DNA of 64,000 bases from Lysobacter silvisoli (lineage in GTDB: Bacteria; Pseudomonadota; Gammaproteobacteria; Xanthomonadales; Xanthomonadaceae). The notes below the pieces were generated by a model, which saw only the letters and a program-made list of their open reading frames with translations, had not been told where the DNA came from and searched no databases. The translations under genes were made by a program, and so were the position numbers. Below are positions 9,382-45,769 of this stretch, in pieces. Numbering within the stretch: the stretch's first letter is position 1; each line of letters opens with the position of its first letter. The stretch lies in NCBI RefSeq assembly GCF_003382365.1, contig NZ_QTSU01000003.1:62001-126000 (forward strand), in the 5' to 3' direction.

Positions 9382-9397
9382 GAGCAGCGTTTCTGCC

Positions 9398-9478
9398 TTG
9401 GGGTAGGAGCGGCGTGAGCCGCGACCGCGAAGCTTCGGGCGCCTGCGCAAGTCGCGGCTCACGCCGCTCCTACCCCAA
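9398..9478. repeat. Long palindrome of the GTAGGAGCGGC intergenic family
   Basis: The arms 9398-9425 and 9451-9478 are a perfect 28-bp inverted repeat beginning TTGGGGTAGGAGCGGCGTGA, with a 25-nt loop. It lies just after the chorismatase stop and resembles REP/BIME elements. Related copies occur near 9.9-10.2, 19.5, 35.6 and 45.3 kb. As RNA it could act as a 3' stabiliser or a weak terminator. Confidence 0.85.
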
Positions 9479-9607
9479 AGCGATGGCTGCGAGCCGCCCA
9501 GGGGTGCCGAAAGACACCCTGTCCGGCGACCACCGGCCCTTGAATCCGCGCCAACCGCCAGCATCATGGCCCCGAGCGCATTTGCGCCTGCACGGGAGAC
9601 CGCAACG

Positions 9608-9904: not shown

Positions 9905-10157
9905 TCGGGGTAGGAGCGGCGCAAGCCGCGACCGCGCAACTACGACCACCGACGCGAGCCTCGATCCGGACTGTGTGAGCGACGTGACTCACGATTACTC
10001 CACAAACCGAAATGCCGCTGCAGCCGAGCAATCGCGGCTCACGCCGCTCCCACAGAAGGCTAAGAGCAACCGCTTTGGGGTAAGAGCGGCGTAAGCCGCG
10101 ACCGCGGAGCTTCGGCCACCTGCGCAGGTCGCGGCTTACGCCGCTCCTACCCCAAAG
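9905..10157. repeat. Cluster of GTAGGAGCGGC palindromes
   Basis: This 317-bp gene-free stretch holds two nested sets. A half unit at about 9905-9936 faces its inverted partner at about 10030-10050. A near-perfect hairpin has arms 10072-10102 and 10127-10157 with one mismatch in 31 bp. No coding sequence was found. The hairpin lies immediately beyond the 3' end of the minus-strand ABC ATPase gene. Confidence 0.8.
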
Positions 10158-10173
10158 CCAAAAGCCAGAAGCG

Positions 10174-19069: not shown

Positions 19070-19465
19070 CCCTCACCCCAACCCCTCTCCCGTGAACGGG
19101 AGAGGGGCTAAAAGCAGAAGCGTCGGATCTGTCCCCTCTCCCGCTTGCGGGAGAGGGCTAGGGTGAGGGGATGAGCGCGCAGCGCGAATGCTCTTGATCC
19201 CCGCTCGGGCATCGAACTCGCTGTCCCAATAGAAGACCCGAAGGGCGGCGCACAGGATGTGCGCCGTTTTCCGCTAGGCCAGGGATGGCCTATCGAAAAA
19301 TCCCCGCGCCCACTCCGCTCTCGCACGGGAGCTCTGGCGAAGCGTTTTTCTTTGGTTACTTTCTTTTGACGCTTATCAAAAGAAAGTAACCCGGCCGCTT
19401 GCGGACGGAAGCTGTTGCTGTTGCTCCTAAAAAAGCACACCCACACACCTTCGCGCGTTCGGAGC
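19070..19465 (+). repeat. Large intergenic repeat element, copy A
   Basis: About 396 bp without a gene, matching copies B (35165-35560) and C (45395-45769, inverted). In order it holds a CCCCTCTCCCG hairpin, a second hairpin of the same type, a GGCGCAC/GTGCGCC hairpin (19247-19265), a long hairpin 19267-19300 with apical stem TAGGCC/GGCCTA, and a perfect ACTTTCTTTTGA/TCAAAAGAAAGT hairpin. It then ends in a GGCCGCTTGCGGAC tail. It follows cysA and may also end its transcript. Its function is unknown. Confidence 0.85.
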
Positions 19466-34358: not shown

Positions 34359-35129
34359 ATGAAGATCTACAGCTGGAACGTCAACTCGCTCAACGTGCGC
34401 ATGCCGCACCTGGAAACCTGGCTGGGCCTGCGCGTGCCGGACGTGGTGGCGCTGCAGGAAACCAAGCTGGAAGACCACCGCTTTCCCGACACCGCGCTGT
34501 CGGCGCTGGGCTACCGCAGCGTGTTCGTCGGACAGAAGACCTACAACGGCGTGGCCATCCTCTCGCGCGAACCCGCGCGCGAGGTGCAGATCGGCGTGCC
34601 GGGCCTGGAGGACGAGCAGAGGCGCGTGATCGCCGCCACCGTCGGCGAGCTGCGCATCGTCAATCTGTACGTGGTCAACGGCCAGGACGTGGGCACCGAC
34701 AAGTACGCCTACAAGCTGCGCTGGCTCGACGCGGTGCACGCCTGGATCGCGCAGGAGCTGCAGCGCTATCCGCAGATGATCGTGCTGGGCGATTTCAACA
34801 TCGCCCCCGACGCGCGCGACGTGTACGACCCGGCGGTGTGGAACGAGGACCACATCCTCACCTCCACCGCCGAGCGCGAGGCACTGCAGCGCTTGCAGGC
34901 CTTGGGCTTGCACGATGCCTACCGTCTGCATCCGCAGGCCGAGGGCGAGTTCAGCTGGTGGGATTACCGGCAGGCGGCGTTCCGGCGCAACCTGGGACTG
35001 CGCATCGACCTGACGCTGATTTCCGATGCGCTGCGCGCGCGCTGCACGGCAGCAGGCATCGATCGGGAGCCGCGGACGTGGGACCGGCCTAGCGATCATG
35101 CGCCGGCTTGGGTGGAGTTGGCGGACTGA
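34359..35129 (+). CDS. xthA: Exodeoxyribonuclease III
   Basis: 256 residues of the ExoIII/APE endonuclease-exonuclease-phosphatase fold. Active-site motifs are SWNVNSLNVR, the metal-binding LQETKL, LGDFNIAP, and the C-terminal WDRPSDHAPAW containing the catalytic histidine. It repairs abasic sites and trims 3' ends in DNA. Length is near the usual 255-270. It is followed by the second large repeat block. Confidence 0.95.
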   Translation: MKIYSWNVNSLNVRMPHLETWLGLRVPDVVALQETKLEDHRFPDTALSALGYRSVFVGQKTYNGVAILSREPAREVQIGVPGLEDEQRRVIAATVGELRIVNLYVVNGQDVGTDKYAYKLRWLDAVHAWIAQELQRYPQMIVLGDFNIAPDARDVYDPAVWNEDHILTSTAEREALQRLQALGLHDAYRLHPQAEGEFSWWDYRQAAFRRNLGLRIDLTLISDALRARCTAAGIDREPRTWDRPSDHAPAWVELAD

Positions 35130-35164
35130 GTTGAGGCGGCGGCGCGAGCTTGATGGTTCGCGTG

Positions 35165-35560
35165 CCCTCACCCCAACCCCTCTCCCGCAAGCGGGAGAGG
35201 GGCTAAAGCAGCAAGCGGCGTCGAGTGCGTCACCTCTCCCGCTCGCGGGAGAGGGCTAGGGTGAGGGGGTGAGCGCAACGCGCGAATGCTCTTGCTCCTC
35301 GCTCGGGCACCGAACTCGCAGTCCCAACAGAAGACCCGGAGGGCGGCGCACAGGAGGTGCGCCGTTTTTCGCTGGCACAGGGATGTGCCATCGAAAAATC
35401 CCGGCGCCCACTCCGCTCTCGCAAGGGAGCTCTGGCGTAGCGTTTTTCTTTGGTTACTTTCTTTTGACGCTTATCAAAAGAAAGTGACCCGGCCGCTTGC
35501 GGACGGAAGCTGTTGCTGTTGCTTCAACCAGCACACCCAAACACCTTCGCGAGTTCGGAG
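35165..35560 (+). repeat. Large intergenic repeat element, copy B
   Basis: Same order of hairpins as copy A. The long hairpin here has lower stem TTTTTCG (35365-35371)/CGAAAAA (35392-35398) and apical stem TGGCACA (35373-35379)/TGTGCCA (35384-35390). These differ from copy A but still pair completely. It occupies the gene-free stretch after xthA. Confidence 0.85.
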
Positions 35561-35564
35561 CGGA

Positions 35565-35737
35565 TCGCGGCTCACGCCGCTCCTACCCCAAGGCGCCAGA
35601 GCAGCCCCCCGCCGACCGAGGGCTTGGACGTAGCTGCGGATTCGCGGTCGCAGCTTGCGCAGCTCCTACACGGGGCGTGCGTAGTTATCGTCGCAGGTGA
35701 GGATTCGCGGTCGCGGCTTACGCCGCTCCTACCCCAA
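35565..35737. repeat. Three palindrome units following repeat copy B
   Basis: GCGGC-class, GCAGC-class and GCGGC-class units lie at about 35565-35589, 35639-35670 and 35699-35737, the same succession as after copy A. The spacers also align (TGCGTAG...TCGTCG...AGGTGAGGATTCGCGG). Confidence 0.75.
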
Positions 35738-35801: not shown

Positions 35802-36077
35802 TCAGCGCACGCGCCCGCGCCGGAACAGATTGACGATGCCCAGCAGCACGATCGCGCCGATCAGCGACAACAGCAACCCGGTCAGGCTGAAGTTGCCGTC
35901 GTTGATGTCGCCCGCACCCAAGCCGAGCACACCGCCCAGCCAACCGCCGAGGAAGGCGCCGACGATGCCGACGATCACGTTGAGGAAGATGCCCTGTTGA
36001 CCGTCCGTCCTCATGATCATGCTGGCGATCCAGCCGATGACGCCGCCTACTACCAGCCAAATGATGATGCCGAGCAT
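35802..36077 (-). CDS. GlsB/YeaQ/YmgE (transglycosylase-associated) membrane protein
   Basis: 91 residues with three hydrophobic, glycine-rich segments (GIIIWLVVGGVIGWIASMIM and FLNVIVGIVGAFLGGWLGG, then LTGLLLSLIGAIVLLGIVN). This is typical of the stress-associated YeaQ/YmgE family; the biochemical role is unknown. ATG 36077 is preceded by a GGAG site. The longer upstream frame shadows the ligase gene. Confidence 0.88.
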   Translation of the reverse strand: MLGIIIWLVVGGVIGWIASMIMRTDGQQGIFLNVIVGIVGAFLGGWLGGVLGLGAGDINDGNFSLTGLLLSLIGAIVLLGIVNLFRRGRVR

Positions 36078-45394: not shown

Positions 45395-45769
45395 AGCAAC
45401 AGCAACAGCTTCCGTCCGCAAGCGGCCGGGTCACTTTCTTTTGATAAGCGTCAAAAGAAAGTCACCAAAGAAAAACGCTGTCCTTGGACAGAGCCCCCCT
45501 GCGAGATCGATGCGTGCGCGGGGATTTTCCGATCGGGCCTCTTGCCCGAGCGGAAAACGGCGCACGTCCTGTGCGCCGCCCCCCGCCTTCGCGGGGGCAG
45601 GCTCTTCGGGTCTTCTGTTTGCGCGGCGAGTTCGGTGCCCGATCAAGAGCATTCGCGCTGCGCGCTCACCCCCTCACCCTAGCCCTCTCCCGCAAGCGGG
45701 AGAGGGGACAGGGCCGCCGCTGTTGCTTTAGCCCCTCTCCCGTTCACGGGAGAGGGGTTGGGGTGAGGG
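45395..45769 (-). repeat. Large intergenic repeat element, copy C (inverted)
   Basis: Reads 5' to 3' on the minus strand. The long hairpin has lower stem TTTTCCG (45525-45531)/CGGAAAA (45551-45557) and apical stem TCGGGC (45533-45538)/GCCCGA (45544-45549). All pairs are kept although the sequence differs from A and B. It occupies the gene-free region upstream of the sensor kinase. Confidence 0.85.

Follow-up and report, generated by a model that had tools for sequence, protein, structure and literature searches.

A dispersed intergenic hairpin element with constrained A(N)GGA loops, a candidate RsmA decoy

Introduction

RNAs of the RsmW and RsmV type are known from a single gene or a few genes per genome, and the palindromic elements derived from IS200/IS605 have hairpin ends and an orientation bias relative to replication. 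To our knowledge, RsmA/CsrA is the only widespread gammaproteobacterial factor with a specificity for A(N)GGA loops. The published Rsm motif, CANGGANG, is presented in penta- or hexaloops, and SELEX gave the consensus RUACARGGAUGU (PMC6849547). RsmW binds RsmA and derives from a 3′ untranslated region (UTR) (PMC4950607). In Xanthomonas, the RsmA-binding RNA RsmU, also of 3′ UTR origin, is without an Rfam homologue (PMC7694677), and homologues of rsmB have been reported missing (PMC3937308). An RsmU mutant without GGA motifs still bound RsmA, in a smaller complex, so that GGA loops alone do not settle RsmA binding in this group of bacteria (PMC7694677). Among DNA repeats, GTAG REPs and REPINs are dispersed palindromes located mostly in convergent or unidirectional spacers, and the frequent G-T pairs in REPs have been taken as a sign of RNA function (PMC3733652).

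Here, we describe a repeat present in a 64,000-nucleotide stretch of DNA, called the window. Like RsmW and RsmV (CL00106), the element contains stem-loops with A(N)GGA loops, and the 3′ UTR origin of RsmW is a further point of likeness (PMC4950607); unlike them, it is a candidate only, is scattered over the genome in as many as about 100 copies and has no match at gathering score. RsmU, an RsmA-binding RNA of 3′ UTR origin from the same bacterial family with no Rfam homologue, is similar, but is reported from one locus conserved only in Xanthomonas (PMC7694677), the two being set apart by description, not by sequence. GTAG REPs and REPINs share with the element its palindromic, dispersed nature and its preferred spacers (PMC3733652), but REPs measure 20–40 bp and bear a GTAG tag, whereas the core of the element is ~180 nt long, comprises several hairpins and has loops under constraint. 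Elements derived from IS200/IS605 also have hairpins and a replication-linked orientation, but the element has no identified target, ends or transposase. In how it would work, it resembles the Rsm-sequestering RNAs; it is not assigned to CL00106 because no score reaches the family threshold and RsmA binding is only predicted. No description of the element was found in the literature, as judged by titles and abstract openings, with supplements and most subscription papers outside the search.

Results

Element anatomy

An earlier note on this DNA reported three copies in the window, which were confirmed at 19070-19465 (+), 35165-35560 (+) and 45395-45769 (−), with the stems it had listed (Table 1). 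The core spans ~180 nt and folds into a mini-hairpin, a tandem pair of hairpins and, 3′ of these, a long hairpin. Its parts, 5′ to 3′, are the mini-hairpin (CCC-GNA-GGG), hairpins 1 and 2, a linker, hairpin 3, a CCGC-TT-GCGG hairpin and the sequence GGAAGC. The 5′ REP-like module and the core occur together in 89 of the 99 copies fetched from the window genome (alignments running from query position 25 or less to 355 or more). No GTAG tag is found at the feet of hairpins 1–3 in the cores read, and the GTAG REPs are separate neighbours.

Table 1. Features of the element and its surroundings in the window
Feature	Position	Strand	Remark
Gene 5′ of copy 2, probable xthA	34359..35129	+	Gene call
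5′ REP-like inverted-repeat module (CCCTCACCCC...GGTGAGGGGG)	35164..35269	+	Belongs to composite unit in window genome
Core element, copy 2	35331..35510	+	Block common to relatives; match of model R1 at 35331-35402
Mini-hairpin CCC-GGA-GGG, copy 2	35335..35343	+	Loop GNA on + strand, UNCG opposite
Hairpin 1, loop AGGAG (35352-35356), copy 2	35344..35364	+	A(N)GGA loop in parsed copies
Hairpin 2 (long central hairpin of the earlier note), loop AGGGAT (35379-35384), copy 2	35365..35398	+	
Hairpin 3, GGTTACTTTCTTTTG / CAAAAGAAAGTGACC, copy 2	35452..35489	+	Loop without GGA; 104 near-identical genome copies
3′ GTAG-type REP (GTAGGAGCGGCGTGAGCCGCGATC on minus strand)	35563..35586	−	Read from sequence
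Downstream neighbour of copy 2, convergent	35802..36077	−	Gene call
Core element, copy 1 (apical stem TAGGCC/GGCCTA)	19233..19412	+	R1 match at 19233-19304 (G000:C3:81233-81304 of the window genome)
Core element, copy 3 (apical stem TCGGGC/GCCCGA)	45408..45614	−	Read from sequence

In the family alignment (83 rows), every cell of the mini-hairpin is paired and its loop is GNA in 76 rows, with N taking all four letters. Hairpin 2 of copy 2 has a C-U mismatch in mid-stem, where the pair is unpaired in 41 of 81 family rows, and the lower stem of copy 1 (A), TTTTCCG/CGAAAAA, contains one C-A mismatch. The stem of hairpin 3 varies in sequence from species to species. In copy 3, the mini-hairpin holds a nested insertion and the hairpin 2 loop, AAGAG, has lost its GGA. 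The insertion, ~23 nt with a hairpin of its own (CCCCCGCGAAGGCGGGG), lies at about 45580-45604 of the window (minus strand), and is also present in the mini-hairpins of two further loci, L307 and L336. Elsewhere in the window, an inverted repeat of ~87 bp composed of GTAG-type REPs occurs in two copies (9395-9481 and 10072-10158), 677 bp apart and 91% alike.

The earlier note saw no open reading frame that explains the element. Mechanical open reading frames overlap it, but the gene caller placed no gene inside. A coding explanation was rejected by gene calling, with 0 genes called in the 26 parsed cores of the window genome and in 30 cores of a relative, G157.

Copy number and phylogenetic spread

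Three turned out to be far too low a number of copies. By stem pattern (three mismatches or fewer), the window genome contains 104 copies, against 0 in the reversed control, and the 396-bp query gave long matches of 89–100% identity to this genome in the best 40 of 200 candidates. Ninety-nine copies were fetched (30 search loci, 67 by place and 2 more from the window), and the 94 that could be parsed carry the apical stems TGGCAC (58), TCGGGC (30), TAGGCC (5) and CGGCAC (1). The three apical stems seen in the window are alleles of one genome-wide family.

We take the window genome to be that of a Lysobacter, since it is among Lysobacter records that the upstream gene has its best relatives. 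The DNA query matches all 20 of 20 genomes of the genus, its own included. The best locus falls within query positions 142-363, the core region, in 13 of the 19 others, and covers the 5′ module only in G062, G151, G152, G154, G158 and G162. A model of the first three helices built from 21 diverse sequences, R1, was run on three of these six, G062, G154 and G162, and located the core in all three; the core is thus established in 17 of the 20 genomes. With strict filters and the own genome included, R1 matches are present in at least 78 of 149 genomes of the family (at least 36 of 54 genera), at least 24 of 121 genomes drawn from the order and at least 19 of 185 drawn from the class, where families outside the order reach at least 11 R1 matches. 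The relative G116 has 121 R1 matches. Five genomes of a Xanthomonas-like genus have at least 1–4 each; at the one of these matches that was read (L231), the neighbours look like efflux-system genes, not comEA. The plasmid collection gave no match for the window core, and the window has no Rfam 15 family at gathering score; copies of this kind are likely to be overlooked in annotation.

Fold and covariation

The fold is maintained by compensatory change. Aligned by MAFFT over the first three helices, the 21 diverse sequences show two-sided changes at 16 of 25 pairs, and 97.9% of their 518 cells are paired; none of 500 shuffles is as high on these measures, which bears out the compensatory stem change proposed earlier. 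The larger alignment that the earlier note had set as a refutation test points the same way: among 83 distinct family rows from 88 loci, two-sided changes affect 19 of 25 pairs and 333 cells (0/500 shuffles), and pairing is kept in 97% of cells. The order draw (27 distinct rows from 16 loci, of which two are same-family) has two-sided changes at 22 of 25 pairs; the 83-row and 27-row alignments, having been fitted to the model, are biased in favour of the structure. For each of the 14 pairs of hairpin 2, the family contains a change of both partners, and hairpins 1 and 2 of the window genome comprise 1828 Watson-Crick cells versus 17 others.

G-U pairs are nearly absent, with 9 GU/UG versus 3 AC/CA among 2029 cells. 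Because of this rarity, the element fails the mark of RNA function applied to REPs (PMC3733652). Strand assignment by wobble was rejected, the GU and AC counts singling out neither strand (9 versus 6 in the window genome, 0 versus 1 in G157), and shuffled sequences fold less well than either strand (z −4.97 and −4.59).

Loops and the Rsm motif

The reading of the earlier note is supported in part, but it missed the main clue, namely that the stems change sequence but keep presenting A(N)GGA(N) loops with a closing C-G pair. Counted between the innermost paired columns with all rows kept, exact A(N)GGA(N) is found in 73 (hairpin 1), 80 (hairpin 2) and 72 (both) of the 83 distinct family rows, and in 19, 21 and 16 of the 27 rows of the order draw, where GGA lies inside the loop in 23 (hairpin 1) and 24 (hairpin 2). 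The 10 rows from other families of the class have the exact loop in 6 and 10, and GGA inside the loop in 9 and 10. Within single genomes, the motif is kept by 88 of 89 parsed hairpin 1 loops and 93 of 94 hairpin 2 loops of the window genome (181/183 in total), and by 39/39 and 39/39 in G157 (78/78). Directly after GGA, hairpin 1 of the window genome accepts any base (G 39, C 29, T 16, A 4; n = 89) between nearly fixed neighbours; this position corresponds to the last N of the published motif, which was recognised after the loops had been seen. Loops missing the motif include those of weak, partial or opposite-strand matches, but also real losses in relatives, such as ACGAU, AUGAAU and AUAGAU. 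Several A(N)GGA stem-loops are the mark of sRNAs that sequester Csr/Rsm, and each core has two.

A low-threshold Rfam search on four stretches (the window and loci L059, L140 and L232) returned sub-threshold matches on the GGA strand for RsmW in L232 (34.8 bits, E 2.6e-4), L140 (26.9 bits, E 0.015, overlapping the core in part only) and L059 (20.3 bits, E 0.14), and for RsmV in the window (13.3 bits, E 0.14), L232 and L140. None of the RsmA-binding Rfam families was listed on the opposite strand of a core in these four stretches, where the sub-threshold matches include PhotoRC-I (L059, E 0.0032) and Bacillaceae-1 (L140, E 0.13). The gathering thresholds of the CL00106 members are not reached (34.8 versus 52 bits for RsmW, 13.3 versus 100 for RsmV), and other sub-threshold families, mostly microRNAs, score alike. 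The Rsm matches are thus supporting evidence and do not amount to proof. A single CsrA/RsmA gene is present in the window genome, and its product is close to the E. coli protein.

Genomic location

Neighbours were assigned with a home-made gene caller (E, element). The 99 copies of the window genome comprise 70 in convergent spacers, 17 in the arrangement <E<, 9 in >E>, 0 in <E> and 3 without a called neighbour; the 39 copies of G157 comprise 27, 11, 1 and 0, respectively. Baseline spacers of at least 50 nt (window and 40 stretches) are convergent in 36 of 230 cases and divergent in 48. Given this convergent excess and the absence of divergent copies in both genomes, the element keeps away from promoters and favours the ends of transcripts. 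At the tandem sites of the two genomes, 10 copies are read in sense (>E>) versus 28 in antisense (<E<). Of the right-hand genes in the window genome, 88 of 97 face the element, and of the left-hand genes, 80 of 98 read the GGA strand; the more constant neighbour is the gene that reads the opposite strand. Outside the small Lysobacter clade the context is mixed: among 62 places where a gene was called on either side (35 single-core, 25 paired, 2 three-core), 3 are divergent.

Copy 2 follows a gene that we take to be xthA (exonuclease III), and no promoter-like site was found at this copy. A minus-strand gene follows xthA in all 12 relative loci read. Hairpin 1 is succeeded by a U-tract in the window, replaced in relatives by GUGCGCC, GUUCGCG or GUCCGCG. 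The terminator scan did not pick hairpin 1, and it also missed the spacer's own terminator-like hairpin. Such a hairpin, identified by eye in 13 xthA spacers (the window and 12 relatives), is present with or without the element. An intrinsic terminator was rejected, as the U-tract is not conserved and GC-rich pairs take its place in several lineages. The earlier suggestion of a transcription-end module finds no support as the function of the core, on two counts: the U-tract gives way to GC-rich pairs, and the terminator-like hairpin of xthA spacers does not depend on the element.

Site history and homogenisation

The xthA locus was compared in 80 relatives kept of 440. The element occupies the xthA spacer in the window, cf310, Root916 and Root76, and is absent in the other 9 of the 12 Lysobacter loci read. 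R1 matches are found in 6 of the 80 loci, three of them directly after xthA; L160 and L210 have theirs further off, and L185 has a weak match (27 bits) 464 nt downstream of xthA. The comparison of spacers with and without the element, as the earlier note had proposed, could be carried through for filled and empty versions, but the sequences are too diverged to fix the insertion ends. Downstream of xthA, L154 (L. antibioticus 13-6) has a heptamer array (GGGAATC) in place of the element, and L155 (Root690) has another REP type. L174, a record titled Bacillus subtilis SK7B5, contains a xanthomonad-like xthA with 77% identity to that of the window and looks mislabelled or contaminated.

Flanks were compared between 26 loci of the window genome and 49 loci of relatives (4 of 30 own loci could not be parsed). 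Both flanks agree in 10 pairs with the element in the same orientation (8 with G157, 2 with G015) and in one pair with the opposite orientation. Some sites thus look inherited; independent insertion into the same spacers may also fit the shared sites. At the 8 sites common with G157, orthologues are 79.7% alike, no more than non-orthologues (79.8%), and paralogues are 96% alike in each genome; therefore, copies are homogenised or replaced within each genome, both stem arms together. REPs and hexamer arrays pile up in element-bearing spacers. The consensus of 29 copies of G157 (L059-L088) has GTTGCC hexamer arrays of variable length directly 5′ of the core, and similar arrays occur in other species too.

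Orientation, replication and mobility

In G157, a single contig, all 39 R1 matches fit two arcs of opposite orientation, arcs that were drawn after the fact. A fairer statistic is the agreement between adjacent copies among the listed matches on contigs with three or more, which are alike in orientation in 36 of 38 cases in G157, 24 of 25 in G015, 25 of 33 in G149 and 59 of 94 in the window genome. Once gene strand is removed, orientation follows GC skew in G157 (rho −0.70, p 0.0005) and on contig 1 of the window genome (rho −0.58, p 0.0096), with no link in G149 (rho −0.17, p 0.48); without this correction none reaches p 0.05 (G157 p 0.054, window genome p 0.37). Gene direction does not explain the orientation in G157, because 27 of its 39 copies lie in convergent, gene-symmetric spacers, and no other observation speaks as strongly for a DNA mechanism linked to replication. 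That replication sets the orientation in general was rejected: the signal is clear only in G157, has support on contig 1 of the window genome and is missing in G149. Contig 1 of G149, a single contig of 5.77 Mb, has 27 of 34 scored copies in one orientation and no switch, unlike G157. The question is moot in G116, G006 and G117 because of inverted pairs: in G116, 104 of the 118 listed matches are arranged as 52 inverted pairs of the convergent type, one further pair is divergent and 12 matches are unpaired. Convergent-type inverted pairs ~435–490 bp apart are found in G006 and G134, and divergent pairs ~190–275 bp apart in G117 and G013.

The window genome has one match to a Y1 (RAYT-like) transposase, L288 (G000:C5:81067-81327), with inverted GTAG-type REPs on both sides, of the same type as the REP 3′ of the window core. 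The 3.3-kb locus around it, from the search of the window genome for the Y1 family, contains no R1 match at E up to 1. An ordinary REP or REPIN was rejected, as the lone Y1 match goes with GTAG REPs, not with the core, and the core is without a GTAG tag.

Discussion

Copy number, fold, covariation, loop constraint, breadth, spacer location, homogenisation and the single CsrA/RsmA gene are observed. Based on the selected fold and the A(N)GGA loops, and on the specificity of RsmA/CsrA, the best reading is a predicted RsmA-binding RNA: a dispersed, concertedly evolving structured-RNA element with two putative RsmA sites per copy, and a candidate RsmA decoy. The GGA strand would be transcribed, usually within the 3′ untranslated RNA of the neighbour reading into the element; the two adjacent stem-loops, with C-G-closed A(N)GGA(N) penta- or hexaloops, would be bound by RsmA/CsrA; and the copies, as many as about 100 in a genome, would jointly form a distributed RsmA decoy and/or be sites at which RsmA stabilises or processes the carrier transcript. 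We hold this reading at about even odds (roughly 0.5), because G-U pairs, which RNA-level selection should tolerate, are rare, because the arm-dependent orientation in G157 is not predicted by an RNA function, and because transcription is presumed. In its favour are also the sub-threshold RsmW and RsmV matches on the GGA strand, the CsrA/RsmA gene, the 3′ UTR origin of RsmW and RsmU and the reported lack of rsmB homologues in Xanthomonas. Further points against it are the greater constancy of the neighbour reading the opposite strand, Rfam scores that stay below gathering level and are equalled by other families, the lack of a promoter-like site at copy 2, the folding of both strands, the recognition of the motif after the loops had been seen, the loops that have lost GGA and the RsmA binding of the RsmU mutant. 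If the element is an RsmA decoy, one repeat would put about 180 A(N)GGA stem-loops into one genome, in bacteria said to be without RsmB-type sRNAs, which is directly testable. A wider proposal is put forward tentatively, at less than even odds: dispersed RNA elements may, across the class, plant pairs of RsmA/CsrA sites at up to about a hundred transcript ends per genome, so that transcription of ordinary genes, and not CsrB/RsmZ-type sRNAs, would buffer RsmA, with a repeat-like spread and with selection and genome-wide homogenisation for RsmA-binding loops.

The serious rival, possible although on the doubtful side, is a single-stranded-DNA hairpin repeat, that is, a non-autonomous mobile DNA element whose hairpins, formed in single-stranded DNA during replication, would be recognised, loops included, by an enzyme inserting them strand-specifically, the copies persisting between convergent genes, where they do least harm. 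The earlier note had listed a mobile element among its options, and the part of that suggestion that stands is the dispersed copies (104 in the window genome, 121 matches in G116), the empty sites, seen as filled and empty versions of the xthA spacer, and the orientation bias, set by chromosome arm in G157, locally shared in G015, G149 and the window genome, and linked to skew in G157 and contig 1 of the window genome after removal of gene strand. The inverted pairs of G116, the near-absence of G-U pairs and the 0 copies between divergent genes in the window genome and G157 fit as well. This account is opposed by the match of the loops to an RNA-binding consensus, the inherited look of some sites, the homogenisation within genomes, the absence of an associated transposase in the Y1 search of the window genome and of a plasmid match for the window core, the missing skew link in G149 and the uncorrected p values of 0.054 and 0.37. 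Such a repeat could be matched to no described family, and would be an abundant one.

A transcription-end or mRNA 3′-end stabilising module with no particular protein partner is improbable. With U5 after it on the GGA strand, hairpin 1 is terminator-like, the convergent placement (70/96 in the window genome and 27/39 in G157 versus 36/230 at baseline) suits a role at transcript ends, and >E> sites are fewer than <E< sites, but the tract is not conserved, the terminator scan passed over hairpin 1, the spacer has its terminator-like hairpin either way, and the loops would go unexplained. More improbable again is a neutral intergenic repeat without function, in which fold-back repair and gene conversion would keep hairpins perfect and copies alike. 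Homogenisation that looks complete at the 8 tested sites (0.96 versus 0.797 / 0.798) and the piling up of REPs and hexamer arrays in the same spacers are what it would produce; against it, A(N)GGA is for the most part retained in the loops of the family, the order and beyond, with N free, and the stems do not keep their sequence.
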